Shown piece after piece: positions 3,473 to 48,566 of a DNA stretch of 64,000 nt. Below the pieces are notes generated by a model. That model was not told where the DNA came from and ran no database searches. It worked only from the letters and a program-made list of their open reading frames with translations. Every line of letters starts with the position of its first letter. The stretch's first letter is position 1. The stretch comes from Gemmatimonadota bacterium (GTDB taxonomy: Bacteria > Latescibacterota > UBA2968 > GCA-2709665), in assembly GCA_028877215.1 (NCBI GenBank), contig JAPPFJ010000018.1:58714-122713 (forward strand), in the 5' to 3' direction. The position numbers were made by a program, and so were the translations under genes.

Positions 3473-4444
3473 CTACCGTCTAACCGCTTTTTTGATGACC
3501 TCTTCGATAAACCCGGCTTTACCGGCCTGATACGCCGGCCGGTCCTTTGGAAATCGATTCGCCAGGTCCCGTTTCAGCCTGCTGTAGTCTTCCGCAAGGC
3601 TTCGGTTCGATCTCAGGCAATCCCGGAAAAGGATCATATCTTTCCAATCGGTGCTGGTTTTTTCGAACATATGTATCTGATGCGTGCGGGGATCACCCTT
3701 CCCGAAATAGTGCCTCCGGGGGATGCCGTTTTCTCCTCTGAATTCGTACCCGATCCCGGCAAGCGGCTCTATGCAGATCGTCGCTTCGTGAAAGTCCTCG
3801 ACGGCGATCGCAACGTCCAGCTTTGGCTTCGCGCACATCCCCGGGATGGACGTGCTGCCGACGTGCTGGATATCCTCCACGTAATCACCAATCGCTTCTT
3901 CGATATTCTCCTTCTCCAATTCGAACAGGACGTTCCATTCTTCCCGATAGGGCGAAACCGACACATCTCCACCTTTCAATCCGAGCAACCGTCCCTCGCT
4001 GAACAATTCCGGTATCCGCTCACGGGTCAGAAAGGTCCGCAGTTCCGGATCCACCCTGGGTATTGAGTCGATTGAGACCCACGAGAATGCAAAAACAACA
4101 CCGGATTCCGGACCCACCGTTCCAATGTGCTCCCATTCGTCCGGCAAGTCAGAATCGGCCCTGAACAGGTAGTCCGTCCGTTCCACGTCCGACTGGATAT
4201 ATGGTTTGAAGTACCGTGTTGTCCCGATTTTCCGGATAAACCGCAGTTCTTCGATCCCCGACTCTTCGAGGGTTTCGCGGTGCGCGGCCTGAAGCGGCGA
4301 TTCATCGCGCTCCAGGTTCCCACCCGGAAGTCGATAGTATTCGTACCCGACGGATTTGAGCTCGAGGACCAGTAATTCGCATCGCTCATCCGCACTATAC
4401 CTTATGATGTACGCAAATGCCTTATGGACGAGAGACCTGGTCAT
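3473..4444 (-). CDS. NUDIX hydrolase - GrpB (UPF0157)-like fusion protein
   Basis: 323 aa; Nudix box GGNLERDESPLQAAHRETLEESGIE in N-half; GrpB-like VEDIQHVGSTSIPGMCAKPKLDVAIAV in C-half. Confidence 0.8.
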   Translation of the reverse strand: MTRSLVHKAFAYIIRYSADERCELLVLELKSVGYEYYRLPGGNLERDESPLQAAHRETLEESGIEELRFIRKIGTTRYFKPYIQSDVERTDYLFRADSDLPDEWEHIGTVGPESGVVFAFSWVSIDSIPRVDPELRTFLTRERIPELFSEGRLLGLKGGDVSVSPYREEWNVLFELEKENIEEAIGDYVEDIQHVGSTSIPGMCAKPKLDVAIAVEDFHEATICIEPLAGIGYEFRGENGIPRRHYFGKGDPRTHQIHMFEKTSTDWKDMILFRDCLRSNRSLAEDYSRLKRDLANRFPKDRPAYQAGKAGFIEEVIKKAVRR

Positions 4445-5404: not shown

Positions 5405-6481
5405 TCAAGCCCTCGCTACGGTTAATTCAGCCAGTTTGTCCTCATCGAATTCCACGCCCAGGCCAGGGCCCTCGAGCGGTGTCAGAAAGCTGCCTTCCGC
5501 CCTCACGCGTTCCCTGGCCGGCGACGCCATATACAGCAGCGGACCCATCGGGTCGCACGGCAACCGGACCTGCGGTGAGGTGATGCCCACGGCAATCTGG
5601 GCGCTCATGCCCAGCGTAGACTCCTGGTCGGTGCCGATCAGGCAGGGCAGGCCCGCCGCCTCCCCCACCGCCAGGATACGCTTGACGTGGGTGGGGCCGC
5701 CGGACACGCAGGCCACATTGAACGCTGTACATGCGCCTCGTTCGACCGCCTCCCACGCCTGCTGCAGGGAGCCGATATGCCATGTCACGGGCAGATCGAC
5801 GCGTTTGGTGAACTGCGCACTGGAACGCATGTCATACGTCGGCTGCTCGAAGTGATACGGGTCGTGACGCCGCAGCCTGTCGCCGTAGCGCAGCACCTCC
5901 ACCCAATCGCGGAAGCGCCCGGAGAAGTCGATTGACTTGAGCCGGATGAGGTCGCCGTGCCTGGACTTCATCTCGGTGAGGAAACGGTCGTCGAGGTCCA
6001 CGTCGCCGGAGACGTAGTAGCGGAACAGATGGTGACCCAGGTCCACCAGGCGCTGCAGATAGGATCCGGCGCGTTCGAAGTCCTCCAGCACCTGAAATCC
6101 GAAGATCGGGTAGCAGCAGTAAAGCGCGTCGCGCACCTTGCCGCCGAGCATCTGGTACACGGGTGCGCCCTGTACCTTACCGTTGAGATCGTAGAGCGCC
6201 AGATCGACGGCGCTGGCCACGTGCGGATCGGAGACCGTGCTGTTCCAGGTCCGGGCGCGGGCGAAGTCGTTGATCTTGACGATACGACGGGCGTCGCGAC
6301 CCTTCAACTGTTCGTTCAGCTGCCGCGCCAGGGCCGGCACGTCGGCGCACCGGCTGTCCGACGCTTCACCGAGGCCGATCGGACCGTCGTCCACGTGGAC
6401 CTTGATCAACACGTGTCCGGATATTTGGCCGTAGTAGCGCGGCGTCTCGATCTGGATGACTTCGATTCGGTCGATCTTCAC
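5405..6481 (-). CDS. Mandelate racemase/muconate lactonizing enzyme family (enolase superfamily)
   Basis: 358 aa; VKVHVDDGPIGLGEAS, ALYDLNGKVQGAPVYQMLGGKVRD, HFEQPTYD motifs. Confidence 0.85.
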   Translation of the reverse strand: MKIDRIEVIQIETPRYYGQISGHVLIKVHVDDGPIGLGEASDSRCADVPALARQLNEQLKGRDARRIVKINDFARARTWNSTVSDPHVASAVDLALYDLNGKVQGAPVYQMLGGKVRDALYCCYPIFGFQVLEDFERAGSYLQRLVDLGHHLFRYYVSGDVDLDDRFLTEMKSRHGDLIRLKSIDFSGRFRDWVEVLRYGDRLRRHDPYHFEQPTYDMRSSAQFTKRVDLPVTWHIGSLQQAWEAVERGACTAFNVACVSGGPTHVKRILAVGEAAGLPCLIGTDQESTLGMSAQIAVGITSPQVRLPCDPMGPLLYMASPARERVRAEGSFLTPLEGPGLGVEFDEDKLAELTVARA

Positions 6482-6797
6482 GAGCTTCTCCCGGCTACGC
6501 GCAAAGGCGATTCATTCACAACGCGAAAACTTACATGGATGGACAGGATGAACAGGATAAAAAGCCAAAGCCGACCAGGATTAAGCAGGAATATAAGGAT
6601 TAGGCAGGATTACAAGCAAAAACAGGATCAAAACAGGCAAGGATTTGCAGGATTAGAAACCACGTGCAATATCAAAACCTGGTGATGTTCAGCCGCAGCC
6701 AAACAAGCCGAATCGAACATACGAAGGATTGACTGTCAAATCACTCCCCCTGAGAGGGAGGTGCAGAAGCCGAACCTCAGGTGACAAGGTAGGATTT

Positions 6798-7493
6798 TTA
6801 CGCCGAATCACCAAGCGGGAACGTCAACCTCCTTTGGAACCGGAAACTCCCGTCGGGGACCATATACGCCAATCCGTCGCACAGAAATGAGCCGACAGGC
6901 GCCGTTTCCTGGAGCCGCGCGCAGAGTTGAAGGCTCTCTTCAATGGAGATGAACTCGGCGACCGTCATGTGCGGTGCAATGTCGCGTCTGCGATGGGCTT
7001 CGTCCGCAAAGCCCGACGTACCGTGAAGCAATTGCTTCAGGCGCTCGATCGGTTCCCTCGGCGTGATGCGATACGCGACACCCGGGTGCCGCGCGGAGGC
7101 ACAAAGCCTGTCATAGTGAAGCTCGAACGGCCGGACGTCGGCCAGGACGCCGCGGATTTCGCCGGCAAGCGCGGGACTCATTTCGCAGCAGAGAGGATCG
7201 GACAAGGAGATGTGTGCCGGACACCACGCCGCCGAGCGGGGATCGTACCTTGCACGCAGGGAATCAACGTTCCGTGACACGTCGGGCGGCGGCAGGATCA
7301 GGATGACGCCCAGCCGGTAGCCGCGCTGCCAGTCTTCCCACTTCGATGTATCCGTTGCATACGTGATCACAATGAACTCCTGACCGTCTGCGGCGCAGGC
7401 GCGTTTCGATGGCACGCCCTTTGCGTGATTGAACCGGCAGGATGACAATTCCGGTCGGCTTGAATTTATAGAGAAAATCGCGCTTGTGGTCAA
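6798..7493 (-). CDS. 2H phosphoesterase / 2'-5' RNA ligase-like protein
   Basis: Two H-x-S/T motifs, HISLSDP and HMTVAEF; true start may be downstream of the track start. Confidence 0.6.
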   Translation of the reverse strand: MTTSAIFSINSSRPELSSCRFNHAKGVPSKRACAADGQEFIVITYATDTSKWEDWQRGYRLGVILILPPPDVSRNVDSLRARYDPRSAAWCPAHISLSDPLCCEMSPALAGEIRGVLADVRPFELHYDRLCASARHPGVAYRITPREPIERLKQLLHGTSGFADEAHRRRDIAPHMTVAEFISIEESLQLCARLQETAPVGSFLCDGLAYMVPDGSFRFQRRLTFPLGDSA

Positions 7494-7629: not shown

Positions 7630-7745
7630 TTCACTGCTGTCCGAAAACCGTGGGACTTTCGGACTCAAGGCTCGAATAGCGGCTTCAATTGGCGATCGTG
7701 TACGAGCTTGACCCGGATAACGAACACCAGATTGCCATCGGTTTG
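7630..7745. repeat. Dispersed intergenic repeat family D copy
   Basis: CTGCTGTCCGAAAACCGTGGGA...GACCCGGATAACGAACACCAGATTGCCATCGGT; similar at 8338-8450 and, inverted, at 13735-13818 and 56083-56200. Confidence 0.75.
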
Positions 7746-7911
7746 CATTTCTGGATGATTTTTCCAGTCAAATATTCCGCGACTTTCGTAGTTAATCAAA
7801 TCCGATTTCAGGCAGGTAGGATTCAAGATATTCCAGTACACCTGCTCAGAACCGTCATTTCCACATAATCTTGAACAACAGTGACATTTCGGTTAAATTT
7901 GTGAGGATGTT

Positions 7912-8259
7912 ATGTCCAGGAAAGAGATTTGGACAATTGGAAACAGAAAGTGGTTTGAGCGACTGATGGTTTTGCTGTTTATCGGTGCATTGGGGACTTG
8001 GTTTTATTATGGTAACTCCGATATTATTAAAGCGTTGGAATCTATGGTTGTGTTTTCGGTAACCGGTGCATTCGTTATTCTTGCAGGAGGTGAAGCCATG
8101 TTAGGCGTCCTGGCGGAAATACGGCGTAAGCAGCGAGAAGAGGGGCGAGAGGAGGGGCGAGAGGAGGGAAGAAAAGAAGTACTCCAATGGATTAGAGAAC
8201 AGGAGGAAGCAGGGGTGCGGTTTAAGGAACCTCCTCCATATTCTTCTGATAAGAAATGA
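7912..8259 (+). CDS. Small membrane protein with charged C-terminal REEGREEG repeat
   Basis: 115 aa; hydrophobic segments LMVLLFIGALGTWFYY and MVVFSVTGAFVILAGG, followed by a terminator hairpin. Confidence 0.65.
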   Translation: MSRKEIWTIGNRKWFERLMVLLFIGALGTWFYYGNSDIIKALESMVVFSVTGAFVILAGGEAMLGVLAEIRRKQREEGREEGREEGRKEVLQWIREQEEAGVRFKEPPPYSSDKK

Positions 8260-8286
8260 TCGAAATTTGTTCAATGCGGTCCATGT

Positions 8287-8318
8287 AAAAGCCTCCACGT
8301 GATGACGGAGGCTTTTCC
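8287..8318 (+). terminator. Rho-independent terminator
   Basis: AAAAGCCTCC-acgtgatgac-GGAGGCTTTT perfect stem with T-tract, 28 bp after the 7912-8259 ORF. Confidence 0.85.
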
Positions 8319-8337
8319 TTTTGGGAATTAGACCCAA

Positions 8338-8450
8338 TCACTGCTGTCCGGGAACCGCGGGATTCCCGGAGATAAGGCTTCAAAAGTGGCTTCTATGGGC
8401 GATTTTATACGGGATTGACCCGGAGAACGAACACCAGGTTGCCATCGGTG
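8338..8450. repeat. Dispersed intergenic repeat family D copy
   Basis: CACTGCTGTCCGGGAACCGCGGG...GACCCGGAGAACGAACACCAGGTTGCCATCGGT, similar to 7630-7745. Confidence 0.75.
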
Positions 8451-8572
8451 ATCCATATCCTCCTGTCGGACAAACCATCGAGGCGATGGGACTGATGAAG
8501 GATGAATTATTGCGCATTGCTACCGCGTTTTTTCATTCAGCCTTTGCGCACGCAGCCGCGATCAAGGACCTG

Positions 8573-9181
8573 CTAATAAACATAGTAACAATGCCGACTC
8601 ACCGCATTTTCAAATCTCTCGCCCTCTTGTTCCTGTAACCTATTCCATACAGCAATAGTACCTAAATTATCTTCCATTGCCCGATGTGTCTGTGATTTAC
8701 GATAACGGCACCAATCCATTGCATTCTGCAACCTATATGTATTCTTTACATATTTTTGAAGGCCGCGAATCTCACGATACAGTTCCATTACGCACACAAA
8801 CAGATCTGCAGCCGCCACGACGTGCGAAGGTAGGAATTGCAGCTCGAATTCCGCATTATAAACCGCCACGACTCTATCACGAATCGCGTCCCTTATTGCG
8901 GGAACCTGATCTACAAATGTCGAAGAATGCGCGACCGTTTGTGGACTTATTCCATGAATCCCTTGAGCCTCCGGCCAGGATTCAGCGTAGACCGGTTTTA
9001 TATATTCATTCATAATTTCACGGCCATCGTAATCAGCTATCGCGATCTCCACAATTTCATCATCCTCATAAAGACCTGTGGTTTCAATATCAAGAAATAC
9101 GGGTCTGCTGATGTCCACGACCTTTCCATCGTGTCGCTCCAGCATACTCCCCTCCAGTTGAGCAGTGTGCTCTTGACGCAT
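8573..9181 (-). CDS. 3'-5' exonuclease (DnaQ/DEDD-like)
   Basis: 202 aa; FLDIETTGLYEDDEIVEIAIAD ExoI motif, VAVYNAEFELQFL ExoII, HRAMEDNLGT ExoIII. Confidence 0.85.
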   Translation of the reverse strand: MRQEHTAQLEGSMLERHDGKVVDISRPVFLDIETTGLYEDDEIVEIAIADYDGREIMNEYIKPVYAESWPEAQGIHGISPQTVAHSSTFVDQVPAIRDAIRDRVVAVYNAEFELQFLPSHVVAAADLFVCVMELYREIRGLQKYVKNTYRLQNAMDWCRYRKSQTHRAMEDNLGTIAVWNRLQEQEGERFENAVSRHCYYVY

Positions 9182-9221
9182 GTAAATTTAAACTATCAGC
9201 GCAGACGACGAAAATCAACAA

Positions 9222-9250
9222 AAACCCCCGACCCTTTCACGTGGTCGGGG
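9222..9250 (-). terminator. Terminator downstream of thioredoxin gene
   Basis: CCCCGACC...GGTCGGGG stem; minus-strand reading ends in a T-tract (plus AAAA at 9221). Confidence 0.75.
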
Positions 9251-9308
9251 ATCTTGTTCGCCGCGATTTCCAAACTTGACACTTGGTCACGTCAAAAAAC
9301 ATCGAGCT

Positions 9309-9331
9309 CCACTGTATCCTGGATACAGTGG
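9309..9331. promoter_or_regulatory. Perfect 23-bp palindrome, operator-like
   Basis: CCACTGTATCC-t-GGATACAGTGG, 11-bp arms around a single central base. Confidence 0.7.
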
Positions 9332-9403
9332 CCCTGGAAGAGAATCCTACATCCGCGGCGGTTGGAAACCCGAAACGAAAAAACGATCAACGGACCCGCG
9401 CGA

Positions 9404-9739
9404 CTAACGGCGCACGTCGGTTAGTATTTCCTCAATGGAATCGACGAGCCGTTGTTTGGGTACGGCGCCTACCACGCGGTCCACGACGTTTCCATCCTTG
9501 AAGAACAGGAGCGTTGGCAGGCTCTGTATACCGTACCGGACTGCTGACGAATGGGATGTGTCGAAATCCATTTTCCCGACTTTCAGCCGCCCGGCGTATT
9601 CGGCGGCCAGTTCCTTGATAATCGGGGCGATGAGCCGGCAAGGGCCGCACCAGTTCGCGCCGACGTCGACGAGCACGGGCGAGTCTGAGGAAATGACCTC
9701 CGTCTCAAAGGTCGCATCCGTAAACGTGGCGGGCGTCAC
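9404..9739 (-). CDS. trxA: Thioredoxin
   Basis: 111 aa; VLVDVGANWCGPCRLIAPIIKELAAEY active site and SLPTLLFFKDG. Confidence 0.95.
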   Translation of the reverse strand: MTPATFTDATFETEVISSDSPVLVDVGANWCGPCRLIAPIIKELAAEYAGRLKVGKMDFDTSHSSAVRYGIQSLPTLLFFKDGNVVDRVVGAVPKQRLVDSIEEILTDVRR

Positions 9740-9756
9740 TGATCTAACCTCCTTGT

Positions 9757-9996
9757 TTAAAGTGATTTATTACTCGGATCGAGCCGCGAAAAGGCAGGGA
9801 AGAAGAATTCCGGTTCGATGGACCGGACCCTGCCCAGATCGCACATCAGGCCGATATGCTTCGCGTTGGGGGAGATCCTGCCGGTCTCCCAACGGGCAAT
9901 GGTGGACTGGGGAACAGCGAGAATTTCTCCCAACTGCTGCTGGGTCATCCCCACGGCATGACGAAACTCCCTGATCCGCAGCCAGTCGAACGGCAC
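9757..9996 (-). CDS. XRE-family helix-turn-helix regulator
   Basis: 79 aa; VGMTQQQLGEILAVPQSTIARWETGRISPNAKHI. Confidence 0.9.
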   Translation of the reverse strand: MPFDWLRIREFRHAVGMTQQQLGEILAVPQSTIARWETGRISPNAKHIGLMCDLGRVRSIEPEFFFPAFSRLDPSNKSL

Positions 9997-10024
9997 GAAA
10001 CCCTCCTGCGGTTATATCATCTTT

Positions 10025-10038
10025 GCTATAAATATAGC
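10025..10038. promoter_or_regulatory. Operator-like inverted repeat upstream of XRE gene
   Basis: GCTATA-aa-TATAGC, 29 bp upstream of the XRE start. Confidence 0.5.
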
Positions 10039-10204
10039 GGATCGCAGGAATGCTGTCAAGGACGATATTGTTCCTGGCATATCCATCGATACGGATTTGG
10101 AGGCACTGAATGGGGTGTCGCGGGTACCGCTGGTCGGTGTTGTATAAGGGGCACGATGGACGCGAGCGTGGACAACGGGCGCGGATGATCCGTTCACGTC
10201 TAAC

Positions 10205-11230
10205 TTATGCGGCCCCTTCAAGTCCTGTTTTCAATGTCGAATAACATGCGTTCCATCGGTCCAATTCATCCCGCACCTCTTCTTCATCTCCCATGGTCGT
10301 CCAGCAGGTGACGCCGTGGATGAACATCAGCATCCGTTCGATCGCCAGTGCAGCCGATTTCTCCCCTCGCCACGGCGGTTCGCAGACTTTCCGGTACGCT
10401 TTGAGGAATGCGGCTTCCACGCCTTCGTCCACGAGTCGATATCGCGCCGGTTCGCCCCACGGCAAGTCGGCTTGCGGCGCCAGGTAGTACATGGAGACGC
10501 ATACTTCGAACACGCGCCGACCTCGAGACCCGTGATTGCAGTCGATGAACCAGAGTTGCCCTTCGCGATCGATGATCATATTCCGCGGGCCCGTGTCCAG
10601 GTGCAGACCCGTTTCGACCAGGTGAGGACGCAGGCGATCGATCGCTTCGGCGCAGCGTTCCATCGACGCCACGTACTCGATGAATTGGTCGTGATATGGC
10701 TTTCTCCTGGTCGACACCCGCATCTTACGGACGTCCTCCACCAGACTGTCGATCGCCAGATGATTCATGCAGAGACTTTCTTCGTCCGGAAGATCCCGGT
10801 ATCCAACGCCTGCATTGTGAAGTCGGGCAATTTCAGACCCCGCCAGACGCACGTCCGATTCGATTCCCCGCGTCGGCGGCCTTCCCTCCACGAACGGGAA
10901 GACCTCGACTGTCATCCCCCGCTCCGTCACCGAGAAGGTCTTCCCGTCAAACGAACTCAACGGCAGGACGGTCCGTACGCCACGATCGTTCAGGTGCGTC
11001 TGGAATCGATGTACCTGCGACAGACGACGAACCAATGACAATGAACCCTCTGAGTTCCGCGCGGGAGCGGAGACCCGCAGGACGTGCGATTTCCCGGTAT
11101 TCCCGCACGCGATCCTGACGACATGGGCGATCCTGCCGCTCATGGCGTGATATCGTCCATCCCAGAGAATCTCGTACTTACGTTTGAGCCATTCGGGATC
11201 TGGAAGCGAATGGTCCAAGCTCAACGCCAT
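10205..11230 (-). CDS. Aminoglycoside phosphotransferase-family (APH-like) protein
   Basis: 341 aa; LHLDTGPRNMIIDREGQLWFIDCNHGSRGRR catalytic/Brenner-type motif. Confidence 0.8.
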   Translation of the reverse strand: MALSLDHSLPDPEWLKRKYEILWDGRYHAMSGRIAHVVRIACGNTGKSHVLRVSAPARNSEGSLSLVRRLSQVHRFQTHLNDRGVRTVLPLSSFDGKTFSVTERGMTVEVFPFVEGRPPTRGIESDVRLAGSEIARLHNAGVGYRDLPDEESLCMNHLAIDSLVEDVRKMRVSTRRKPYHDQFIEYVASMERCAEAIDRLRPHLVETGLHLDTGPRNMIIDREGQLWFIDCNHGSRGRRVFEVCVSMYYLAPQADLPWGEPARYRLVDEGVEAAFLKAYRKVCEPPWRGEKSAALAIERMLMFIHGVTCWTTMGDEEEVRDELDRWNACYSTLKTGLEGAA

Positions 11231-11352
11231 ATCACCCCACCTCTACACCATGGAATACCGTTGCCGCCAGTCCAAAACCAAAGGTGTCGACGGCGTGCGC
11301 GTTCATCTTCGACTCCGATGGATCGTATCGTCGAACGGCAGGTGTCAGTATA

Positions 11353-12093
11353 TCACCCACCATTCAGCTCTTCGTGAATCCGCCGTTTTCCGAACTCGAT
11401 AAAGGATTCAGTCTGGTTATTCAGCAACTCGCGTTCGTCCGGCGTCTCCGTACCCCGGTATGACGCGACTGCCGCGGCGATTAGCGGTTTCCATTCGGGA
11501 AACCGGGAACGAGCCCATTTGCCGCTGGAAAACTTCGATGCAACGACGTTACGCTCCTGCACGCTAAAAATGATCCGGCACATGTTGAGGACGCAGTAGT
11601 CGGGGTATTGAAGGTTCTGCTGGATGAACGTCAACTCGTGCTCGAGAGCAGTCGTGATTTCGACCCACGACGGCGCCGGAAAGATATCCTTCGGGGGCGG
11701 ACCATAGAGCGTAATGTAACGCTTTGCCCTGATATGCGCGCAATGCAGCGACCATGATTCGTCCCGTATTTCGGGCTGCAACTGGTGGGCGGGTGGGTGC
11801 GTTTTGACGGCATCCTCATAGAGGATGAAATAGGCGTCCAATTCTCCACCCAGTGGCGGAAAGCGCTCCGAAAGGTCCCTCTGCAGTTGAAGAATCGCGT
11901 CTTTGTCTCGACTGCGCAACGGTCCGGTGAGGATCACGTGACAGTCTATGTCCTGAACCGGCCCGGAATCCGGAAATACGGAGGCACCGTGCATGTAGAT
12001 GCCGTGCAGGTTCTCATCGAGGATAACTTCAAGACCGCCAACGAAGGCCTGGCAGACCTTCCTGGCGTTTGAGGGGAGTTGGTCGAACTTCAT
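11353..12093 (-). CDS. Nucleotidyltransferase with AadA-like C-terminal (DUF4111-type) domain
   Basis: 246 aa; IYMHGASVFPDSGPVQDIDCHVIL and CVLNMCRIIFSVQERNVVASKFSSGKWA. Confidence 0.75.
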   Translation of the reverse strand: MKFDQLPSNARKVCQAFVGGLEVILDENLHGIYMHGASVFPDSGPVQDIDCHVILTGPLRSRDKDAILQLQRDLSERFPPLGGELDAYFILYEDAVKTHPPAHQLQPEIRDESWSLHCAHIRAKRYITLYGPPPKDIFPAPSWVEITTALEHELTFIQQNLQYPDYCVLNMCRIIFSVQERNVVASKFSSGKWARSRFPEWKPLIAAAVASYRGTETPDERELLNNQTESFIEFGKRRIHEELNGG

Positions 12094-12126
12094 AAGGCGG
12101 GATGCGTCACCTATCGTGTGATGGCA

Positions 12127-12603
12127 TCAGTCGAGCGACGGGGAGATGCTTTTCTTCAAAGTATACCGCACTTCTTCATAGCCGTCCTTTATTACGACCT
12201 CTCCCCTTCTCCGGCCGAGATGTTCGTAGAACCCCTCGGCGCGGGTGTTTGTTTCTGTTTCCAGCCAGATCTCCTCAGCGCCGTTTTGCCATAACCAGTC
12301 AACAGCTGTCTTCGTCAGCCGTCGCCCGATTCCGCGGCCTTCGTATGCCGGGAGGACGAACAGCGCCCAGATGGACCGGGTTTTGCTATTCGCGATACAA
12401 AATCCGACGACGGGTTTGCCGGCTTCCGCCACCCAACACCTGCCCTCGGTCCGCAGCAATTCCTCGGAGCGCTCGGGCGTTATACCGGACGCTGCCAGAT
12501 CTGCCTCGGTCATCGCGTTTTCGGTCACAGCCGTCCGGATTTCGAACAGCACGGGTATGTCGGCTGCGATGGCCTTGCGGATTTGGACCTGGTCTATGGT
12601 CAA
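12127..12603 (-). CDS. GNAT-family N-acetyltransferase
   Basis: 158 aa; IWALFVLPAYEGRGIGRRLTKTAVDWL acetyl-CoA binding motif. Confidence 0.9.
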   Translation of the reverse strand: MTIDQVQIRKAIAADIPVLFEIRTAVTENAMTEADLAASGITPERSEELLRTEGRCWVAEAGKPVVGFCIANSKTRSIWALFVLPAYEGRGIGRRLTKTAVDWLWQNGAEEIWLETETNTRAEGFYEHLGRRRGEVVIKDGYEEVRYTLKKSISPSLD

Positions 12604-40677: not shown

Positions 40678-40706
40678 TTGACGAAGCCGATCGTTTCGTG
40701 TATACT
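40678..40706 (+). promoter_or_regulatory. Sigma-70-type promoter
   Basis: TTGACG - 17 nt - TATACT, 47 bp upstream of ATG 40754. Confidence 0.7.
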
Positions 40707-40753
40707 ACCAATTGAATTCCTGTAAGTTCTGTGTTCTTCCGGAGACAGTAAGG

Positions 40754-41065
40754 ATGTCTTTTTCCTTCAAACGGATTCATCCCGTTGTCATTTTCGCCCT
40801 GGCGATATTCGCGGGTTACCTTGCGGTATTTCTACTTGCCGCCTTCGCCGGACACGATCACGAACACCCATGTCACGATCATGATCAGCAATGTCATGAT
40901 CCACAGTGTGCGGTCTGCGCCTGGTTCGGCAACCTGAGCATCATTCTGCCGGCAGTGCTCGTGCTGCAGCTTTGCTTTCTGTATTTCAGGCAGGGTTTTT
41001 TCTCGTTCCATTCCCCGCGCACTTCCCTCCTTCTGCCAGACGGACGCGCACCTCCCGTGTCCTGA
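40754..41065 (+). CDS. His/Cys-rich small membrane protein (copy 1)
   Basis: MSFSFKRIHPVVIFALAIFAGYLAVFLLAAFAGHDHEHPCHDHDQQCHDPQCAVCAWFGNLSIILPAVLVLQLCFLYF: two TM segments flanking a His/Cys cluster. Confidence 0.75.
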   Translation: MSFSFKRIHPVVIFALAIFAGYLAVFLLAAFAGHDHEHPCHDHDQQCHDPQCAVCAWFGNLSIILPAVLVLQLCFLYFRQGFFSFHSPRTSLLLPDGRAPPVS

Positions 41066-41381
41066 TCCAACCTCACGTGTCTTCCTGACACGTCCTCCGT
41101 ACTTCCAGGTTTTTTCAAACAGATCGTTCCAGGTCGGACCTGGCTTTGATCCGCGCGTGCAGACGTGTAGCTCGGTTCTACACGCAGGTAGACTCTCGGA
41201 ATAGGGCAACGTGCATTCCCGCCCCTCTCCGGGTCAGGCTACATCGGCAACGCCAGATGACCGGCCCAACGGATTTGCCTGCCGGCAACTTGCCGACACA
41301 ACCGGAATGCGTCTGCCTCGTAGGCGGGTATTCATGCGTTTATCAAGGCGAAGTGAAATTTTGGCACACTGGAGAGCATTA

Positions 41382-42653
41382 ATGCTCAGCATGCTGAAGA
41401 TGAAAACATCCATTCACTGGATTGCAACGGCGGCGGTTGTCGCCGTGTTCGCGTCGGGTTGTGGAAAAGAAGACCCCATTACTCCACAGGAAGAGCATTA
41501 CGAAGCCGAAGGCCTGGTCCTCCTCGACTCCGGTCAGCGTTTCTTCCGCTATTTCCGGGGCAGGATCGACTCGGGCGACGGCCGTGCGGAAATCCTGGCG
41601 GTCGCCCACGGCGAAGTCACGAGCAAGTGGAGCATCCGCTTCCTGGACAGGGACGGAAACGAAATGGCGCCCCCCACCGGCGAGGGCTTCAGTTTCACGT
41701 GGGAGATTGCGGATACGTCAATAGTGGAAGTCGTCCAGGACCCGGGGGAAGCGGGTAAATTCGTCTTCGCCCTTCGCGGCCTCGAAGATGGCGAAACTAC
41801 CATCAGGCTTCAAATCTCGCACGAAGGGCACGTCGACTTTACGACGGTGCCGCTCCCGGTGTACGTGGTAGAAGATATCGAGCACTGGTCCCATTTCAAC
41901 GCGGAAGGGCTCGTCATCATCGAATCCGGCGTTCGGTTCTTCCGCTATTTCCAGGGCGAGATCGACTCTGGCGAAGGTCGGGTGTCGGAACTCACGGTCC
42001 CCATCGGCCTGACGCCTCACTGGCGAATTGTGTTTCTGGACGAACACGGAGAGGAAGTAGACCCGCCGGACGATCCCGAATTCTCGTTCGGCTGGACCAT
42101 TGCCAACCCCGACGTTCTCGAAGTCGTTCAGGACGAAGGCGACGAGGGTTCGTTCGAGTTCCACCTGCGCGGCTTGCAGGAGGGCGAAACCACGATTGTA
42201 TTTGAAGTCAGGCACGAAGGGCACGTTGACTACCGCACACGCCCCATTCCCGTACACGTAGAGTCACAGGAGGGCCAGCACGGCGATCCCGTGGGCGTTC
42301 GGCTTAAGGAAGAAGACAGCGGCGAGTTGCTTACACAGGCGCCCGTTAAGGGAGAAGGCGAAGCCACCGAGGCCCTTGCCGTTGCCGCAGGAGACACAAC
42401 CGACCACGTCGCGACGTTCTTCTTTGACGAAGACGACGTGGAATTCCAGCCGGAAGCGCCCGATCACACGCTGGGCATCGCGGTGGCCGACACCGCGCTG
42501 CTCGCAATCGATCCGCCTGTTGCCCCCGAATACTGGGCCTTCAGACTCATCGGCAAGAAAGCGGGCACGACCACCATTACACTTTCCATTCTCCACGACG
42601 GCGAGGCGGAGGACGAATTCGCGCCCATTTCGGTGGCGATCACCGCACCGTAG
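41382..42653 (+). CDS. Repeat-containing lipoprotein (copy 1)
   Basis: MLSMLKMKTSIHWIATAAVVAVFASGCGKEDP lipobox; internal repeats EGLVLLDSGQRFFRYFRGRIDSGDGR / EGLVIIESGVRFFRYFQGEIDSGEGR; third domain GVRLKEEDSGELLTQAPVKGEG. Confidence 0.8.
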   Translation: MLSMLKMKTSIHWIATAAVVAVFASGCGKEDPITPQEEHYEAEGLVLLDSGQRFFRYFRGRIDSGDGRAEILAVAHGEVTSKWSIRFLDRDGNEMAPPTGEGFSFTWEIADTSIVEVVQDPGEAGKFVFALRGLEDGETTIRLQISHEGHVDFTTVPLPVYVVEDIEHWSHFNAEGLVIIESGVRFFRYFQGEIDSGEGRVSELTVPIGLTPHWRIVFLDEHGEEVDPPDDPEFSFGWTIANPDVLEVVQDEGDEGSFEFHLRGLQEGETTIVFEVRHEGHVDYRTRPIPVHVESQEGQHGDPVGVRLKEEDSGELLTQAPVKGEGEATEALAVAAGDTTDHVATFFFDEDDVEFQPEAPDHTLGIAVADTALLAIDPPVAPEYWAFRLIGKKAGTTTITLSILHDGEAEDEFAPISVAITAP

Positions 42654-42957
42654 CAGAAAACGCTGCGGGAGGGTTTTCTCGCCCTCCCTCCGTCTGCAAG
42701 GTCGGAGCACATTGCAGATGACTGACGTGTACAGGATAGAGCTTCTGCCGAGATTGTCCGTATGATCCCTGAGCCCCGGCAGGCCGACCTCACAATTTAC
42801 CACCTGCCGGGCCGGCACGTCCGGGTTCTGGCACGAGATCACCCGAGCCAGGCCGGTGCGACGTCCTGTGGGACGAAAGGGATGGGTTCGGAAGTTACGT
42901 TGCCAGTGTGTTCATGGCTGTAACCAGGTTCGTTTGCGCTTATCTGGAGACCGCAGG

Positions 42958-43260
42958 ATGTCTTTTTCCTCCGGACGGATTCATCCGGTTGTCGTAATCG
43001 CGCTGGTGATATTTGCGGCCTACCTGGCGGTATTCCTGCTTGCCGTCTTCCCCGAACACGATCACGATCACGGTCAGCCATGTCACGATCACGAACAAAC
43101 GTGTGCCGTCTGTGGCTGGTTCAACAACCTGAGCATCATTCTGCCGGCAATGTTGGCGTTGCAACTCTGCTTTTTGTATTTCAGGCAGGATTTTTGCTCG
43201 TTCCGTTCTCTGACTTCCTCCCTCCTTCTGCCACGCGGACGTGCACCTCCCGTGTCCTGA
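42958..43260 (+). CDS. His/Cys-rich small membrane protein (copy 2)
   Basis: MSFSSGRIHPVVVIALVIFAAYLAVFLLAVFPEHDHDHGQPCHDHEQTCAVCGWFNNLSIILPAMLALQLCFLYFRQDF; close paralog of 40754-41065. Confidence 0.75.
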   Translation: MSFSSGRIHPVVVIALVIFAAYLAVFLLAVFPEHDHDHGQPCHDHEQTCAVCGWFNNLSIILPAMLALQLCFLYFRQDFCSFRSLTSSLLLPRGRAPPVS

Positions 43261-43271
43261 ACCATCCCGGT

Positions 43272-43432
43272 GTCCTGTCCCAAAAATTCCTCACCATTCG
43301 ACCGCCGATTCATCCCGTCTCGCTGAAACGTGGACATCGAGCATGTCGAAGGCGCCGCCCTGAGCTTGTCGAAGGAATGCGAGCCGGGCGACTCAGCGGT
43401 CAAATTAGGGCAGCTTATTTCCGGGACAGAAC
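43272..43432. mobile_element. Insertion of about 160 bp with imperfect terminal inverted repeats
   Basis: GTCCTGTCCCAAAAA ... TTTCCGGGACAGAAC (12/15 match as inverted repeat); absent at the equivalent place in copy 1 near 41075. Confidence 0.5.
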
Positions 43433-43743
43433 GCTGGCGTGTCTTCCTGACACGTCCTCCGTACTTCCATTTTTTTCAAACAGGTCGTACCAGGTCGGCC
43501 CTGGCGGCTAACCCGTGCGTGTAGAAGTGTGTCTTGGTTCTTCACGCGGGTAGACTCTCGGGATTGGGCGAAATGCATTCCCGCCCCTCTCCGGGTCAGT
43601 CGACACCCATATCGCCAGATGACCGGCCCAACGGATTTGCCTGTCGGCAACTTGCCGGCACAACCGCAGTTCGTCTGCCACGCGGGCGGATGCTCATGCG
43701 TTTTTCGGGGCGAAGTGAGATTCCAGTACACAGGAGAACCTTA

Positions 43744-44997
43744 ATGTTCGGCATGCTGAAGATGAAAACATCCCATCACTGGATTGCAACGGCGGCGGTT
43801 CTTGCCGCGTTCCTGTCCGGTTGTGGAAAAGAAGACCCAATTTCGCAACAGGAAGAGCATTATGAAGCAGAAGGCCTCGTCCTCCTCGACGGAGGCCAGC
43901 GGTTTTTCCGTTATTTTCAGGGCAGGATCGACTCGGGCGACGACCGTGCGGAAGCCCTGGAGGTCGGTCACGGCGAAGTCACCAGCAAGTGGAGCATCCG
44001 CTTCCTGGACAGGGACGGCAACGAAATGGCGCCCCCCGCCGGCGAGGGTTTCAGCTTCACGTGGGAAATTGCGGACACGTCGATTGTGGAAGTCGTTCAG
44101 GACGCGAGCGAAGCGGGTAAATTCGTCTTCGCCCTGCGCGGCCTCAAAGATGGTGAAACCACCATCGAGCTTCAGATTGCGCACGAAGGACACATCGACT
44201 TCACCACGGTGCCGCTGCCGGTACACGTGGGAGGAGAGTTCGAGGCGGAAGGGCTCGTCATCATCGAATCCGGCGTTCGATTCTTCCGTTACTTCCAGGG
44301 CGAGATCGACTCTGGCGAAGGTCGGGTTTCGGAACTCACGGCGCCGATTGGCATGACGCCCCACTGGCGCATCATGTTTCTGGACGAAAACGGCAATGAA
44401 ATAGATCCGCCGGAGGATCCGGAATTCACATTCGGCTGGACCATTGCCGACCCCGACGTGGTCGAAGTCGTTCAGGACGAGGGCGACGAGGGTTCTTTCG
44501 AGTTCCACCTGCGCGGCTTGCAGGAGGGCGAAACCACCATTGTATTCGAAGTCAGACACGACGGGCACGTTGACTTTAGTACAAAACCCATTCACGTACA
44601 CGTGGAGGCACAGGAGGGCCAACACGAGGACCCCGTTGGTGTGCGGCTTAAGGATGAAGACAGCGGCGACGTTCTCACCCAGGCGCCGCTGAAGGGAGAA
44701 GGCAATGCTACCGAGGATCTGACGGTTGCCGCAGGTGATTCGACCGACCACATCGTGGCGTTCTTCTTTGACGAACACGACGTGGAATTCCAGCCGGAGA
44801 CGCCCGACCACACGCTGGGCATCGCGGTGGCCGACACCTCGTTGCTTGCCATCGATCCGCCGGTAGCGCCCGAATACTGGGCCTTCAGACTCATCGGCAA
44901 GAAGGCCGGTACCACCTCAATCACCCTTTCCATTCTCCACGACGGCGAGACGGAAGAAGAATTCGCGCCGATATCGGTGGAGATCACCTCACAATAG
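43744..44997 (+). CDS. Repeat-containing lipoprotein (copy 2)
   Basis: MFGMLKMKTSHHWIATAAVLAAFLSGCGKEDP; near-parallel to 41382-42653 throughout. Confidence 0.8.
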   Translation: MFGMLKMKTSHHWIATAAVLAAFLSGCGKEDPISQQEEHYEAEGLVLLDGGQRFFRYFQGRIDSGDDRAEALEVGHGEVTSKWSIRFLDRDGNEMAPPAGEGFSFTWEIADTSIVEVVQDASEAGKFVFALRGLKDGETTIELQIAHEGHIDFTTVPLPVHVGGEFEAEGLVIIESGVRFFRYFQGEIDSGEGRVSELTAPIGMTPHWRIMFLDENGNEIDPPEDPEFTFGWTIADPDVVEVVQDEGDEGSFEFHLRGLQEGETTIVFEVRHDGHVDFSTKPIHVHVEAQEGQHEDPVGVRLKDEDSGDVLTQAPLKGEGNATEDLTVAAGDSTDHIVAFFFDEHDVEFQPETPDHTLGIAVADTSLLAIDPPVAPEYWAFRLIGKKAGTTSITLSILHDGETEEEFAPISVEITSQ

Positions 44998-45194
44998 CTG
45001 GAACCACGGCGGGAGGGCGAGAACCGCCCTCCCGCCACTCACGGGTTCAGGCTACGTCTGCAGAGGCGGGCAACCGGGCCGGCGATTTGGCATTTCGCCA
45101 ACATTCCGGCAATCCGATGTTCGTCCTCCGCGACGGCGGATGCTCACGGGAATTTCCGGACGAAGTGAGATTCCGGTACACAGGAGAATAGACA

Positions 45195-47435
45195 ATGTTC
45201 AGCACACTTACGGTGAAGCCATACCGTCGATTGATTTCAGCGGCGGCGCTCGCGTTGTTTTCAATGGCCTGTCTGGCGGGTGCCAGCTCAGCAAATCAGA
45301 CCGTGTTGATCGAAGGGTATGTCTTCGACAGCGAAACCGGACTGCCCATCGGTAATGTGAACGTCCAATCCGCAGATCACGCCACGCGTGCGTCTACGGA
45401 CGAAAAAGGCCGGTTCGTGCTCCAACTGTCACCGGGTGACTATCGGCTGTCACTTACGCACGTCGGCTATCGGGAAACGCGCCACGAACTGGACATCTCA
45501 AGCGCCAGGCATCCCATTGTCTATCTGGAACTGGCGCGACTGGACCTCAAGCTCGACCCCATCGACGTTGTAGCTGAACGCGCTGAAACCCGATTTGAAG
45601 AACTGCACGAGGCCACCCGCGTGCTTTCGGGCGACGAACTCAGGAAGAAATACAGCATCACGCTGGCCGAGACCATGAAGAACGAACTCGGTGTTGCCAT
45701 CCGGAGCATGGGGCCGGCGCCGGCCCGACCCGTTATCCGCGGGCTCAGCGGCGACCGCGTGCAGATCAACGTCGACGGCATTGAGTCTCAGGATCTCTCC
45801 GCCACGTCGGCCGACCATGCGGTAACCGTCGAGACTTTCAACGCGGAACGCCTGGAAATCATCCGTGGTCCCCGCACGCTGCTGCACACGGCCACGGCCG
45901 GCGGCGGTGTCATCAACGTCGTCAAGCACAGGATCCCCGAAACCCGGCCGGAGCGCTTCTTCGGAAGCGTCGGCGCCTACGGGGAAACGGCGAACCTGGG
46001 TTATTTCTCGTCCGCCGCCCTTACCGCCCCCGTTGGGCCGCTCGCACTACGTGCCGAGACCACCTACCGTGATACCAGGGATATCCAGACCCCGGTCGGC
46101 CGGCTCGCTAACACGCCCATCAACACGCGTACGTATGCCCTCGGCGGGTCCTACGCGGGGGAACGGGGATACGTCGGCGCTTCATTCGATCAGTTCGAGA
46201 CGCAGTACGGCATTCCTGGCGGATTCGTCGGCGCGCATCCCAACGGCGCGGACCTGGATATCGTACGTCGGGTCTACGATGGGAAGGCGGTCTATCGGTT
46301 CGACGGCGGGATGAAAGACAGAATCGAGGCAGGCTTCACGAGGGCCTACTACTACCACGTCGAGTACGAATCAAGCGGCAGCGTCGGGTCAGAGTTCCTT
46401 TTTCATGACTACAGCGGCGATCTCGAACTCTACCTGAACACCGGAAACAAGGAGCAAAACACCGTCCTCACGGCCGGCTATGAACACCGCAATCTCAAGC
46501 TGGGCGGTTTTGTCTTCACCCCGCACACGCGAAAGCAGGACGTCAACTTCGGGCTGTACCACGAAACAACCTGGCGCAACATCGAGCTACAGGCCGCGGC
46601 CCGATACACCCATGCGACGTTTGACCCACGCCTCCAGGCGGACTCCAACCCGAGCCTGGTCGTAGACCGCGCCTTCCACATATGGTCCGCGGCCTTCAGT
46701 CCGCTCGTGCCCATTTCCGACCAGATGACCGCGGGCTTCAGCCTCAACCGCTCCCAGCGCGCGCCCACGATCGAGGAACTCTACAACGAGGGACCGCACC
46801 TGGCCGCTTACACCTTTGAGAAGGGTAACGTCGAACTCAACGCTGAACGCAGTTTCGGCGCGGAGGCATTCTTCCACTACCTGCAGCCGGGATTCGACCT
46901 GGTCTTCACGGGATTCTGGAACGAATTCGGCAATTACATCGCGCCGCGAAATACGGGAGAAATCAACTGGTCTCAGCTCCTTCCCATCTACGCCGCGGAA
47001 GGAATAGACGCGAGAATGAGGGGCGTGGAATCCCACCTGAAATGGCGTCCGAACGCGCGTCTGGAACTGGAGATGAAACTGAGCCACGTGCGCGGCGAAA
47101 ACCGGGACGACCGCATGCCCCTGCCCGAAATGCCGCCGCTCAAGTTCGTGGGCAGCGCAACCTACAGGCACCCATGGCTAACAGGTGGCGGAACCGTAGA
47201 GTGGGCGGCAGGACAGAAACGCGTGGATACCTACGAGGACCCCACCGACGGTTATTCGGTCTTCGGCGTCTACGTACAGCGGGATTTCCTCACGAATCAG
47301 GCCCGCCACAGCTTTGTCCTTTCCCTTGAGAATCTTCTCGACACGGAATATCGCAACCACCTTTCGCGCGTCCGGTCCGTGATGCCCGAAACCGGCCGTA
47401 GCCTTAAACTGAACTACAAGATGTATTTCTTTTAG
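45195..47435 (+). CDS. TonB-dependent receptor, ZnuD-like, with N-terminal carboxypeptidase-regulatory-like domain
   Basis: 746 aa; IEGYVFDSETGLPIGNVNVQSADHATRASTDEKGRFVLQL and PVIRGLSGDRVQINVDGIESQDLSATSADHAVTVETFNAERLEIIRGPRTLLHTATAGGGVINVV plug. Confidence 0.88.
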   Translation: MFSTLTVKPYRRLISAAALALFSMACLAGASSANQTVLIEGYVFDSETGLPIGNVNVQSADHATRASTDEKGRFVLQLSPGDYRLSLTHVGYRETRHELDISSARHPIVYLELARLDLKLDPIDVVAERAETRFEELHEATRVLSGDELRKKYSITLAETMKNELGVAIRSMGPAPARPVIRGLSGDRVQINVDGIESQDLSATSADHAVTVETFNAERLEIIRGPRTLLHTATAGGGVINVVKHRIPETRPERFFGSVGAYGETANLGYFSSAALTAPVGPLALRAETTYRDTRDIQTPVGRLANTPINTRTYALGGSYAGERGYVGASFDQFETQYGIPGGFVGAHPNGADLDIVRRVYDGKAVYRFDGGMKDRIEAGFTRAYYYHVEYESSGSVGSEFLFHDYSGDLELYLNTGNKEQNTVLTAGYEHRNLKLGGFVFTPHTRKQDVNFGLYHETTWRNIELQAAARYTHATFDPRLQADSNPSLVVDRAFHIWSAAFSPLVPISDQMTAGFSLNRSQRAPTIEELYNEGPHLAAYTFEKGNVELNAERSFGAEAFFHYLQPGFDLVFTGFWNEFGNYIAPRNTGEINWSQLLPIYAAEGIDARMRGVESHLKWRPNARLELEMKLSHVRGENRDDRMPLPEMPPLKFVGSATYRHPWLTGGGTVEWAAGQKRVDTYEDPTDGYSVFGVYVQRDFLTNQARHSFVLSLENLLDTEYRNHLSRVRSVMPETGRSLKLNYKMYFF

Positions 47436-47469
47436 CATCCGCTCACCGTCGGCGGAGTGACAAGTCAAC

Positions 47470-47499
47470 AGCCCCGTGTCAGTCGTTATACACGGGGCT
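47470..47499 (+). terminator. Strong hairpin after TonB receptor, terminator-like
   Basis: AGCCCCGTGT-cagtcgttat-ACACGGGGCT, 35 bp after stop; weak T-tract. Confidence 0.6.
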
Positions 47500-47552
47500 G
47501 GCTTCTCACTGGCCTGAACGTTGAACCATGGAGTACAAACGGCGATATACTA

Positions 47553-47606: not shown

Positions 47607-48566
47607 TCAACCTGACTCTTCGCTGTTGAAGAACGGTATCATATTACCCTTTCCCGGAACGCCTCGCCAATCGTCTTCCTCATCGGAACCCGAAAATATG
47701 CTCTGTGCATCGCGCGGCAACTTGCTGACGTGCATCAGGAAGGCTAACGCGCTTTCGGCTTTTTCTATCGGAAATCGGTATCCATAGTGGTTTCCGACGG
47801 TCTGCGCCGTCCGAACGAACAGCCTGTGGATCACCTGCAAAGACTCGGTGATATCGTCATAATCCGATCCGGCGCAGGTCCGTTCGAACTCCCGCCAGTC
47901 CTCAGCTTCAAGGTGCTCCTCCAGGTTTTTCCCTTCGCTTCCCAGCGATCTCTCGAATCCCTTCGTCACGCCGATGTACCAGCCCAGCATCAGGACAAGG
48001 TCTTGCCGCAGGCGGCCTATATGACACTTAAGCACCGGAAGCTGTCGACGCCACAAGGCCTTTGGAACGTGCGATCCGAGGCTGAAGCAGAATGAGTCGC
48101 AGCAGTCAGCATACCACTTCTGCGTGGGTTTCGTGATGAAAAAACTTCGTTCACTCGGACCCGGGAGATCGGGAATCAGCCCGTCCTTGTCCAGCAGGAC
48201 CCGGGTGAGACTGTCGAATGTGCGCGTCTCCGCCAATTCGACATGCAAAAAAGCCATATCGATGCGATTGCCGTCTGAGAATTGGACGTTGTAGGTATAG
48301 CGACCGTCGCGGATGCCGGGCCGGTAGACCTGGTCCTCTACTTTTTCTACGAGGAGCGGGACCCCAAAGTACGGAACGACGTTTTTTTCTTCTCTGAATG
48401 GTACGAGGTTCGTGACGAAAAAGGCAATATCGTAGTCCCGGAAAATGTCCTTCTCGGCGTTCGGGTTGACACGAGATCCATTCATTAGAACCGCCCGAAT
48501 CCGGTCATCGGCTCGGGCAAAGCCGAGGATCAGCGCCAGCATTTCGTCTTCGGTTCGCGTCGTCAC
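47607..48566 (-). CDS. Aminoglycoside 6-adenylyltransferase-like (AadE-type) protein
   Basis: 319 aa; AVLMNGSRVNPNAEKDIFRDYDIAFFV, FSDGNRIDMAFLH. Confidence 0.85.
   Translation of the reverse strand: MTTRTEDEMLALILGFARADDRIRAVLMNGSRVNPNAEKDIFRDYDIAFFVTNLVPFREEKNVVPYFGVPLLVEKVEDQVYRPGIRDGRYTYNVQFSDGNRIDMAFLHVELAETRTFDSLTRVLLDKDGLIPDLPGPSERSFFITKPTQKWYADCCDSFCFSLGSHVPKALWRRQLPVLKCHIGRLRQDLVLMLGWYIGVTKGFERSLGSEGKNLEEHLEAEDWREFERTCAGSDYDDITESLQVIHRLFVRTAQTVGNHYGYRFPIEKAESALAFLMHVSKLPRDAQSIFSGSDEEDDWRGVPGKGNMIPFFNSEESG

Follow-up and report, generated by a model that had tools for sequence, protein, structure and literature searches.

We analysed a window of 64,000 nucleotides on contig C18 of G000, a Latescibacterota metagenome-assembled genome (MAG) of 5.35 Mb with an estimated contamination of 7.4%, and found in it a plus-strand block (40678-47435) that is probably a zinc-acquisition operon whose two small His/Cys-rich proteins, HC1 and HC2, are regulatory upstream open reading frames (uORFs) of the CruR type. 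The block reads, in order, promoter, HC1 (uORF1), a lipoprotein gene (LP1), HC2 (uORF2), a second lipoprotein gene (LP2) and a TonB-dependent receptor gene, and all five genes lie where an initial annotation of this DNA had placed a doubled pair of His/Cys protein and lipoprotein followed by a TonB receptor. A second copy of the module, with one HC, one LP and one receptor, is present on contig C5 of the same MAG, and a search for the triad elsewhere, which the initial annotation had suggested, returned the same gene order in some 30 other genomes; on account of this second copy and of the recurrence in other genomes the module is not a chance arrangement. The promoter and the two small genes are located as follows.

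40678..40706, plus strand: sigma-70-type promoter TTGACG-17-TATACT, 10/12 match
40754..41065, plus strand: uORF1 (HC1), 103 aa, with an N-terminal hydrophobic export segment, a His/Cys-rich segment, CAVC, 42 residues and RAPPVS-stop
40853..40918, plus strand: putative metal-binding segment of uORF1 (HDHEHPCHDHDQQCHDPQCAVC), partly made of a 21-bp tandem repeat
41045..41056, plus strand: RAPP codons of uORF1 (CGC GCA CCT CCC), the presumed ribosome-arrest site by analogy with CruR (PMC9426467, PMC12992588)
42958..43260, plus strand: uORF2 (HC2), 100 aa, with HDHDHGQPCHDHEQTCAVC, 42 residues and RAPPVS-stop
43240..43251, plus strand: RAPP codons of uORF2 (CGT GCA CCT CCC)

CruR (Bp2923, DUF2946), the uORF of the cruR-bfrG/crtA-bp2921 operon of Bordetella pertussis, is an exported peptide in which a CXXC is followed after 45 residues by RAPP, three residues from the end; in the metal-free state the ribosome stalls at RAPP and blocks Rho, and metal relieves the stall, leading to Rho termination (PMC9426467). 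Stalling of CruR itself has been shown in vitro, and a wide range of contexts is known in which RAPP or RGPP brings the ribosome to a halt (PMC12992588). Both window proteins end in the same way, and the His/Cys motifs which the initial annotation had quoted for them proved to be exact. Across the phylum the identity among HC proteins falls to 16%, and invariance is confined to Met1, a single His, a single Cys and the R.PP. The spacing from this Cys to RxPP is 42-46 residues in 40/40 uORF homologues (43-44 outside the phylum), all of which have RxPP 2-7 residues from the C-terminal end and at least two His before the Cys. The C-terminal motif is RAPP in 16 of the 40, RSPP in another 16 and RGPP in eight, while the Cys motif is CxxC in 29/40 and Cxx[HYGS], with the His kept, in 11/40. 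The ratio of nonsynonymous to synonymous substitution rates (dN/dS) of 0.20-0.64 denotes purifying selection, which implies that the uORFs are translated as proteins. A 21-bp tandem repeat (window 40853-40901), with lengths varying between copies, forms the His-rich segment of uORF1, and the number of metal ligands can therefore change by slippage.

The first uORF sets were obtained by homology search (families f1 and f2) and by motif search upstream of the lipoprotein gene (f4 and f6), the latter being possibly circular. We scanned all open frames of at least 60 codons on both strands of 1.01 Mb of locus sequence, 4,054 frames in total, for the signature; a C-terminal R[ASG]PP was present in 52 of them, 47 of those 52 carried the full signature, and 45 of the 47 were followed, in the same orientation and within 1,200 nt, by a lipoprotein gene. 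Furthermore, the lipoprotein profile alone led us to loci outside the phylum, and in 5/6 of those fetched a signature uORF (RAPP or RGPP) was found directly upstream, with homologous receptors downstream in 4/6. The circularity of the motif-found sets is mostly removed by the open-frame scan and by this recovery outside the phylum. In an open scan of 14 members against 24,736 models, the family matched by most of them was Pfam DUF2946 (PF11162), to which CruR belongs, with 7/14 matching and a best E of 0.0068. Above-cut-off DUF2946 members numbered two in 386 genomes and none in 111, and those two share the uORF layout. Weak NCBIfam matches to the uORFs, among them one to the XrtV accessory protein, formed no consistent family and were set aside.

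These observations suggest that the window His/Cys proteins are most likely arrest-peptide uORFs of the CruR/CutF type and not transporter parts. The initial annotation had taken them for membrane proteins with a probable metal site. Their hydrophobic segments combined with a His/Cys segment, the purifying selection on them and a His-rich stretch that grows through repeats would all suit stable inner-membrane metal binders which take zinc from the receptor. However, the strictest conservation resides in the C-terminal R.PP near the stop and in its distance from the Cys, not in the membrane segments, and the CruR protein is barely made and acts only in cis; we consider the membrane-protein role improbable. 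The metal-uptake module with a ZnuD-like receptor is supported as first described, whereas the idea that the His/Cys proteins are membrane parts feeding the receptor is not supported, since the invariants, the fixed spacing, R[ASG]PP and the operon-first place fit the CruR type.

The receptor supplies the first line of evidence for the metal. The high-affinity zinc ligands of ZnuD are Asp99, His100, Glu340 and His499 (PMC4557270), and in profile alignments they fall on the following positions of the window protein.

45195..47435, plus strand: ZnuD-like TonB-dependent receptor with a CarboxypepD_reg-like N-terminal domain, plug and barrel
45813..45818, plus strand: receptor Asp207-His208, aligned with ZnuD Asp99-His100
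46362..46364, plus strand: receptor Glu390, aligned with ZnuD Glu340
46797..46799, plus strand: receptor His535, aligned with ZnuD His499

All four residues (D207, H208, E390 and H535) are invariant in 39/39 receptors of the family, a set that includes five from other phyla. The likeness to ZnuD, which the initial annotation had recognised, is seen in both kinds of search: the best named family is NCBIfam ZnuD (E 3e-60, 204.6 bits, which is far under the curated cut-off of 950 bits) and the best solved relative is also ZnuD (PDB E 8.5e-35; 4RDR at E 1.6e-64 with profile A5). With Neisseria ZnuD (PMC4557270; PDB 4RDR) the window receptor thus shares plug and barrel homology and the four zinc ligands; unlike ZnuD it has the CarboxypepD_reg-like domain at its N terminus, and the His-rich stretch of ZnuD loop 3 was not recovered in the alignments.

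The second line of evidence is the neighbourhood, which in relatives holds genes of kinds that are part of zinc-starvation regulons. There, a COG0523 GTPase and a WD40 protein flank the operon, either behind the receptor or ahead of the uORF, and a ZIP transporter is close by; COG0523 subfamily 5 is known to cluster with WD40 genes and znuABC, some of its members being predicted to be Zur-regulated (PMC2770081). On contig C28 of G000, a COG0523 GTPase lies beside NicO, an ATP-binding cassette (ABC) ATPase, ZnuA and the only FUR-family gene of the genome. The NicO-type nickel/cobalt transport protein heads this ZnuA-FUR-COG0523 cluster (L106, 1008-2030). At locus L054 (G010:C1:5627000-5643000, minus strand, 8608-12234), an RSPP uORF without a lipoprotein heads a split MacB-type ABC system and DUF3299, which shows that the sensor uORF can occur apart from the receptor operon; it may define a wider zinc regulon; at L139 a uORF-LP pair precedes the same MacB/DUF3299 set. 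The genome G379, outside the phylum, has two uORF-LP copies with identical lipoproteins (L139 and L140), one before MacB/DUF3299 and the other before two tandem TonB receptors. We take PA4066 of Pseudomonas to be a DUF3299 protein. The Pseudomonas split-MacB operon PA4063-PA4066 is Zur-regulated (PMC11481552) and has the split MacB ATPase and permease in common with the genes behind the L054 uORF and the L139 uORF-LP pair, which include DUF3299; it differs in that control here is presumably by the uORF rather than, or besides, Zur, and a homologue of PA4063 was not recognised.

If the uORFs are of the same kind, they could alternatively sense copper and serve a copper-importing receptor, which would make the operon an ordinary CruR regulon. 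No other rival weighs as much, since copper is what every tested uORF of this type among those we found responds to, all characterised CruR/CutF uORFs being copper-responsive (PMC9426467, PMC9973294); CruR orthologues head many operons of the CrtA copper receptor, the CXXC is kept in most of the uORFs, and the window receptor gives weak OprC matches. Yet the receptor matches ZnuD far better than OprC and its family keeps all four zinc ligands throughout. The CXXC, which CruR requires in order to respond to copper, has lost its second Cys in 11/40 uORFs while the His stays, and the neighbours observed are COG0523, WD40, ZIP and MacB-DUF3299, not PCuAC, Sco, PepSY or CopC. We therefore regard copper as unlikely, and zinc appears to be the best-supported metal, judging from the four invariant ZnuD ligands and the COG0523/WD40/ZIP/ZnuABC-Zur/MacB-DUF3299 context.

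The region between each uORF and its lipoprotein gene bears on how such a sensor might work.

41006..41109, plus strand: C>G bubble across the uORF1 stop (peak C 45%, G 17%), a candidate Rho loading region
41066..41381, plus strand: long uORF1-LP1 intergenic region with no conserved reading frame and no Rfam match
43261..43743, plus strand: uORF2-LP2 intergenic region, its 3' part homologous to the uORF1-LP1 spacer

At most loci the distance from the uORF stop to the first LP match is 92-317 nt, and over 27 loci the peak of the C>G bubble at the uORF stop ranks, at the median, among the highest 2% when equal scans are run on that DNA. G000 encodes Rho. The promoter before copy 1, as pointed out by the initial annotation, is conserved, since TTGAC(G/A)-17-TATA(C/T)T is kept 5' of the uORF in same-family relatives; for uORF2 no own promoter was recognised. 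An operator palindrome, GAAAC-N5-GTTTC, seen between -35 and -10 in L040 and L042, was dropped as it is absent in L041 and L043. We lean towards a zinc-responsive nascent-chain sensor, that is, a family of His/Cys arrest-peptide uORFs in Latescibacterota and some other phyla, sometimes two in series, which would control a ZnuD-type receptor and an HxxHxDF lipoprotein with immunoglobulin-like (Ig-like) domains post-transcriptionally, alongside a Zur-type regulator. When zinc is scarce, the ribosome would stall at RAPP near the uORF end and keep Rho away from the transcript, which would allow expression of the genes for lipoprotein and receptor. When zinc is present, its binding to the His/Cys segment, while the chain is still nascent, would relieve the stall, and Rho would terminate transcription in the spacer before the lipoprotein gene. 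The lipoprotein would bind zinc through HxxHxDF and pass it to, or take it from, the outer-membrane ZnuD-like receptor. Because uORF2 is without a recognisable promoter of its own, LP2 and the receptor in the doubled module of the window would stand behind two checkpoints in series.

A control of the CutF type would work in the opposite sense: metal would slow export of the uORF product, the ribosome would unfold a stem-loop over the next ribosome site, and metal would switch the genes on. Rhodobacter capsulatus CutF has 5,334 CutF-like relatives, some clusters of which are considered not to be specific for copper; these are His-only ones that stand before HupE/UreJ, with nickel or cobalt suggested as the metal (PMC9973294). 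Like CutF-like proteins, the window uORFs are small exported, putatively metal-binding proteins with C-terminal prolines and a Cys/His motif, placed upstream of metal genes, some CutF-like proteins also having TonB neighbours, and hairpins do occur near the uORF end in the window. On the other hand, activation by CutF makes use of a stem-loop and is expected where the spacer is short, and the spacers here are long; the uORFs share the RxPP motif with CruR, folding at the end of uORF1 is nothing out of the ordinary (z -1.4), and an uptake operon is expected to be off at plentiful metal. We give this alternative little probability and retain the zinc-relieved stall described above.

Several observations weigh against that preferred interpretation. 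RSPP, the motif of 16/40 uORFs here, gives no more than partial arrest when placed in ApdA/ApdP contexts (PMC12992588), and none of the 14 members scanned reaches the DUF2946 gathering score. The C>G bubble is partly a product of Pro-rich coding and is not strong at every locus, L043 and L044 being examples. As for the metal, the CXXC, the copper motif of CruR, is also the commonest form here (29/40) and suits copper too, neither COG0523 proteins nor sites of the ZnuD type are restricted to zinc, and the zinc locus on C28 is possibly foreign, given the contamination of the MAG.

We also examined the lipoproteins, which stand between the uORFs and the receptor.

41382..42653, plus strand: LP1, lipoprotein with three Ig-like domains, HxxHxDF in domain 1 and HxxHxDY in domain 2
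43744..44997, plus strand: LP2, second lipoprotein, 85% identity to LP1

Both carry a lipobox. The initial annotation had read two repeats and a third domain in each and had proposed a structure prediction; profile A3 matches each protein three times, as two strong repeats and a weaker third domain, and AlphaFold predicts three Ig-like domains in each (predicted local distance difference test score, pLDDT, 83). Domain 3 is without the HxxHxDF motif, as read from the sequence. The family-wide invariants are a His near the mature N terminus and HxxHxDF, a putative zinc site; of the five genomes from other phyla, four keep it as HxxHxD[FY], and distant relatives have a single domain. No Pfam or NCBIfam model names LP1 or LP2 at cut-off, and chagasin, pilus-N and Big_2 were rejected as the family because their matches lie below it. 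Foldseek with the LP model retrieved generic Ig-like proteins only (S-layer, filamin, FdeC), and hence no functional homologue is available; LP1 and LP2 represent a new family built from Ig-like domains. The same type of domain also occurs at the C terminus of larger proteins in G006 and G010 that look dockerin/cohesin-like or have WD40-like repeats, with no uORF or receptor (L058, about 6240-7298; L059, about 7675-8970).

The lipoprotein was found in 31/64 genomes of Latescibacterota, with remoter relatives in five genomes outside the phylum, and the doubling seen in the window is not peculiar to it: doubled arrays recur in separate families (L039 in f1, L063 and L064 in f4), the order uORF-uORF-LP-receptor is found in L043, and the whole operon is doubled in L047, L049, L051 and L052. 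In the C5 copy of G000, the stretch that separates the lipoprotein from the receptor (L008, about 3543-3800) contains Ns and runs of poly-G/poly-C, which have the look of an assembly artefact. A further trace of duplication, which the initial annotation had overlooked, lies directly before the receptor.

44998..45194, plus strand: 197-bp leader of the receptor gene, with homology to the spacers between uORF and LP

A partly decayed LP copy is still visible at the leader position in L039, and most simply the leader would be the remnant of a deleted lipoprotein copy. An alignment of the leaders that precede LP1, LP2 and the receptor extends over some 190 nt, as that of a conserved metal riboswitch might; however, segmental duplication explains their likeness, the leader is absent before the receptor in L038, L040 and L041 and already decayed in L041 and L042, and the Rfam scan gave two chance-level matches only and no curated riboswitch family. 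The riboswitch idea was rejected as highly improbable. Coding potential of the leader, where a frame is open in two copies, was likewise rejected, the frame being broken in relatives.

The initial annotation had not recognised the arrangement as a described system. Metal-responsive RAPP uORFs before TonB receptors are in fact already described (PMC9426467, PMC9973294, PMC12992588); the zinc context, the lipoprotein family and the tandem sensors are new with respect to the papers found. In common with CruR, the window uORFs are operon-first before a TonB receptor (with the second uORF of a tandem array lying inside the operon), have an export segment, a Cys motif and a C-terminal RAPP at a spacing of 42-46 versus 45 residues, and are followed by a long spacer with a C>G bubble at the uORF end. 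Unlike CruR, they fall below the DUF2946 cut-off and are His-rich, the second Cys is dispensable in part of the family, the uORFs can be in tandem, the next gene encodes the new lipoprotein, and the receptor is ZnuD-like, not CrtA, in a zinc context. RAPP/RGPP arrest-peptide uORFs comprise ApdA, ApdP, ApcA, SecM and a TonB-related class, the last of which has been predicted broadly across Gram-negatives (PMC12992588, PMC10987492). Like the members of this class, those of the window family are small exported proteins that end in RAPP/RGPP and precede genes to which they are functionally linked, and the family departs from that class in its defined His/Cys sensor, its three-gene module and the RSPP variant.

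In the papers found, nascent-chain metal sensing has been shown only for copper (CruR, CutF). No report of a zinc-responsive arrest peptide was found in the open papers searched, which are not all the literature, and zinc is absent from the main text of PMC12992588 and PMC9973294. If the zinc version is true, the RAPP-uORF would be a general metal-sensing device in which the Cys/His content of the nascent chain sets the metal, and zinc uptake would be controllable post-transcriptionally as well as through Zur. The natural series of variants (CxxC versus CxxH/CxxY; RAPP, RSPP and RGPP; single versus tandem) is suited to the study of metal choice and arrest strength. The module also offers an otherwise unnamed lipoprotein family its first likely function and a partner receptor.

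Three hairpins follow genes of the block.

42667..42688, plus strand: G+C-rich hairpin after LP1, without U-run
45008..45036, plus strand: strong hairpin after LP2, within a fold of z -6.3, without U-run
about 47469..47500, plus strand: hairpin after the receptor, without U-run

The last of these had been called a terminator in the initial annotation; the hairpin is present, but it lacks a U-run and was not called an intrinsic terminator. The gene after the operon, at 47607-48566 on the minus strand, belongs to the streptomycin adenylyltransferase family (PF04439, E 1e-82), a resistance-type enzyme in an environmental MAG.

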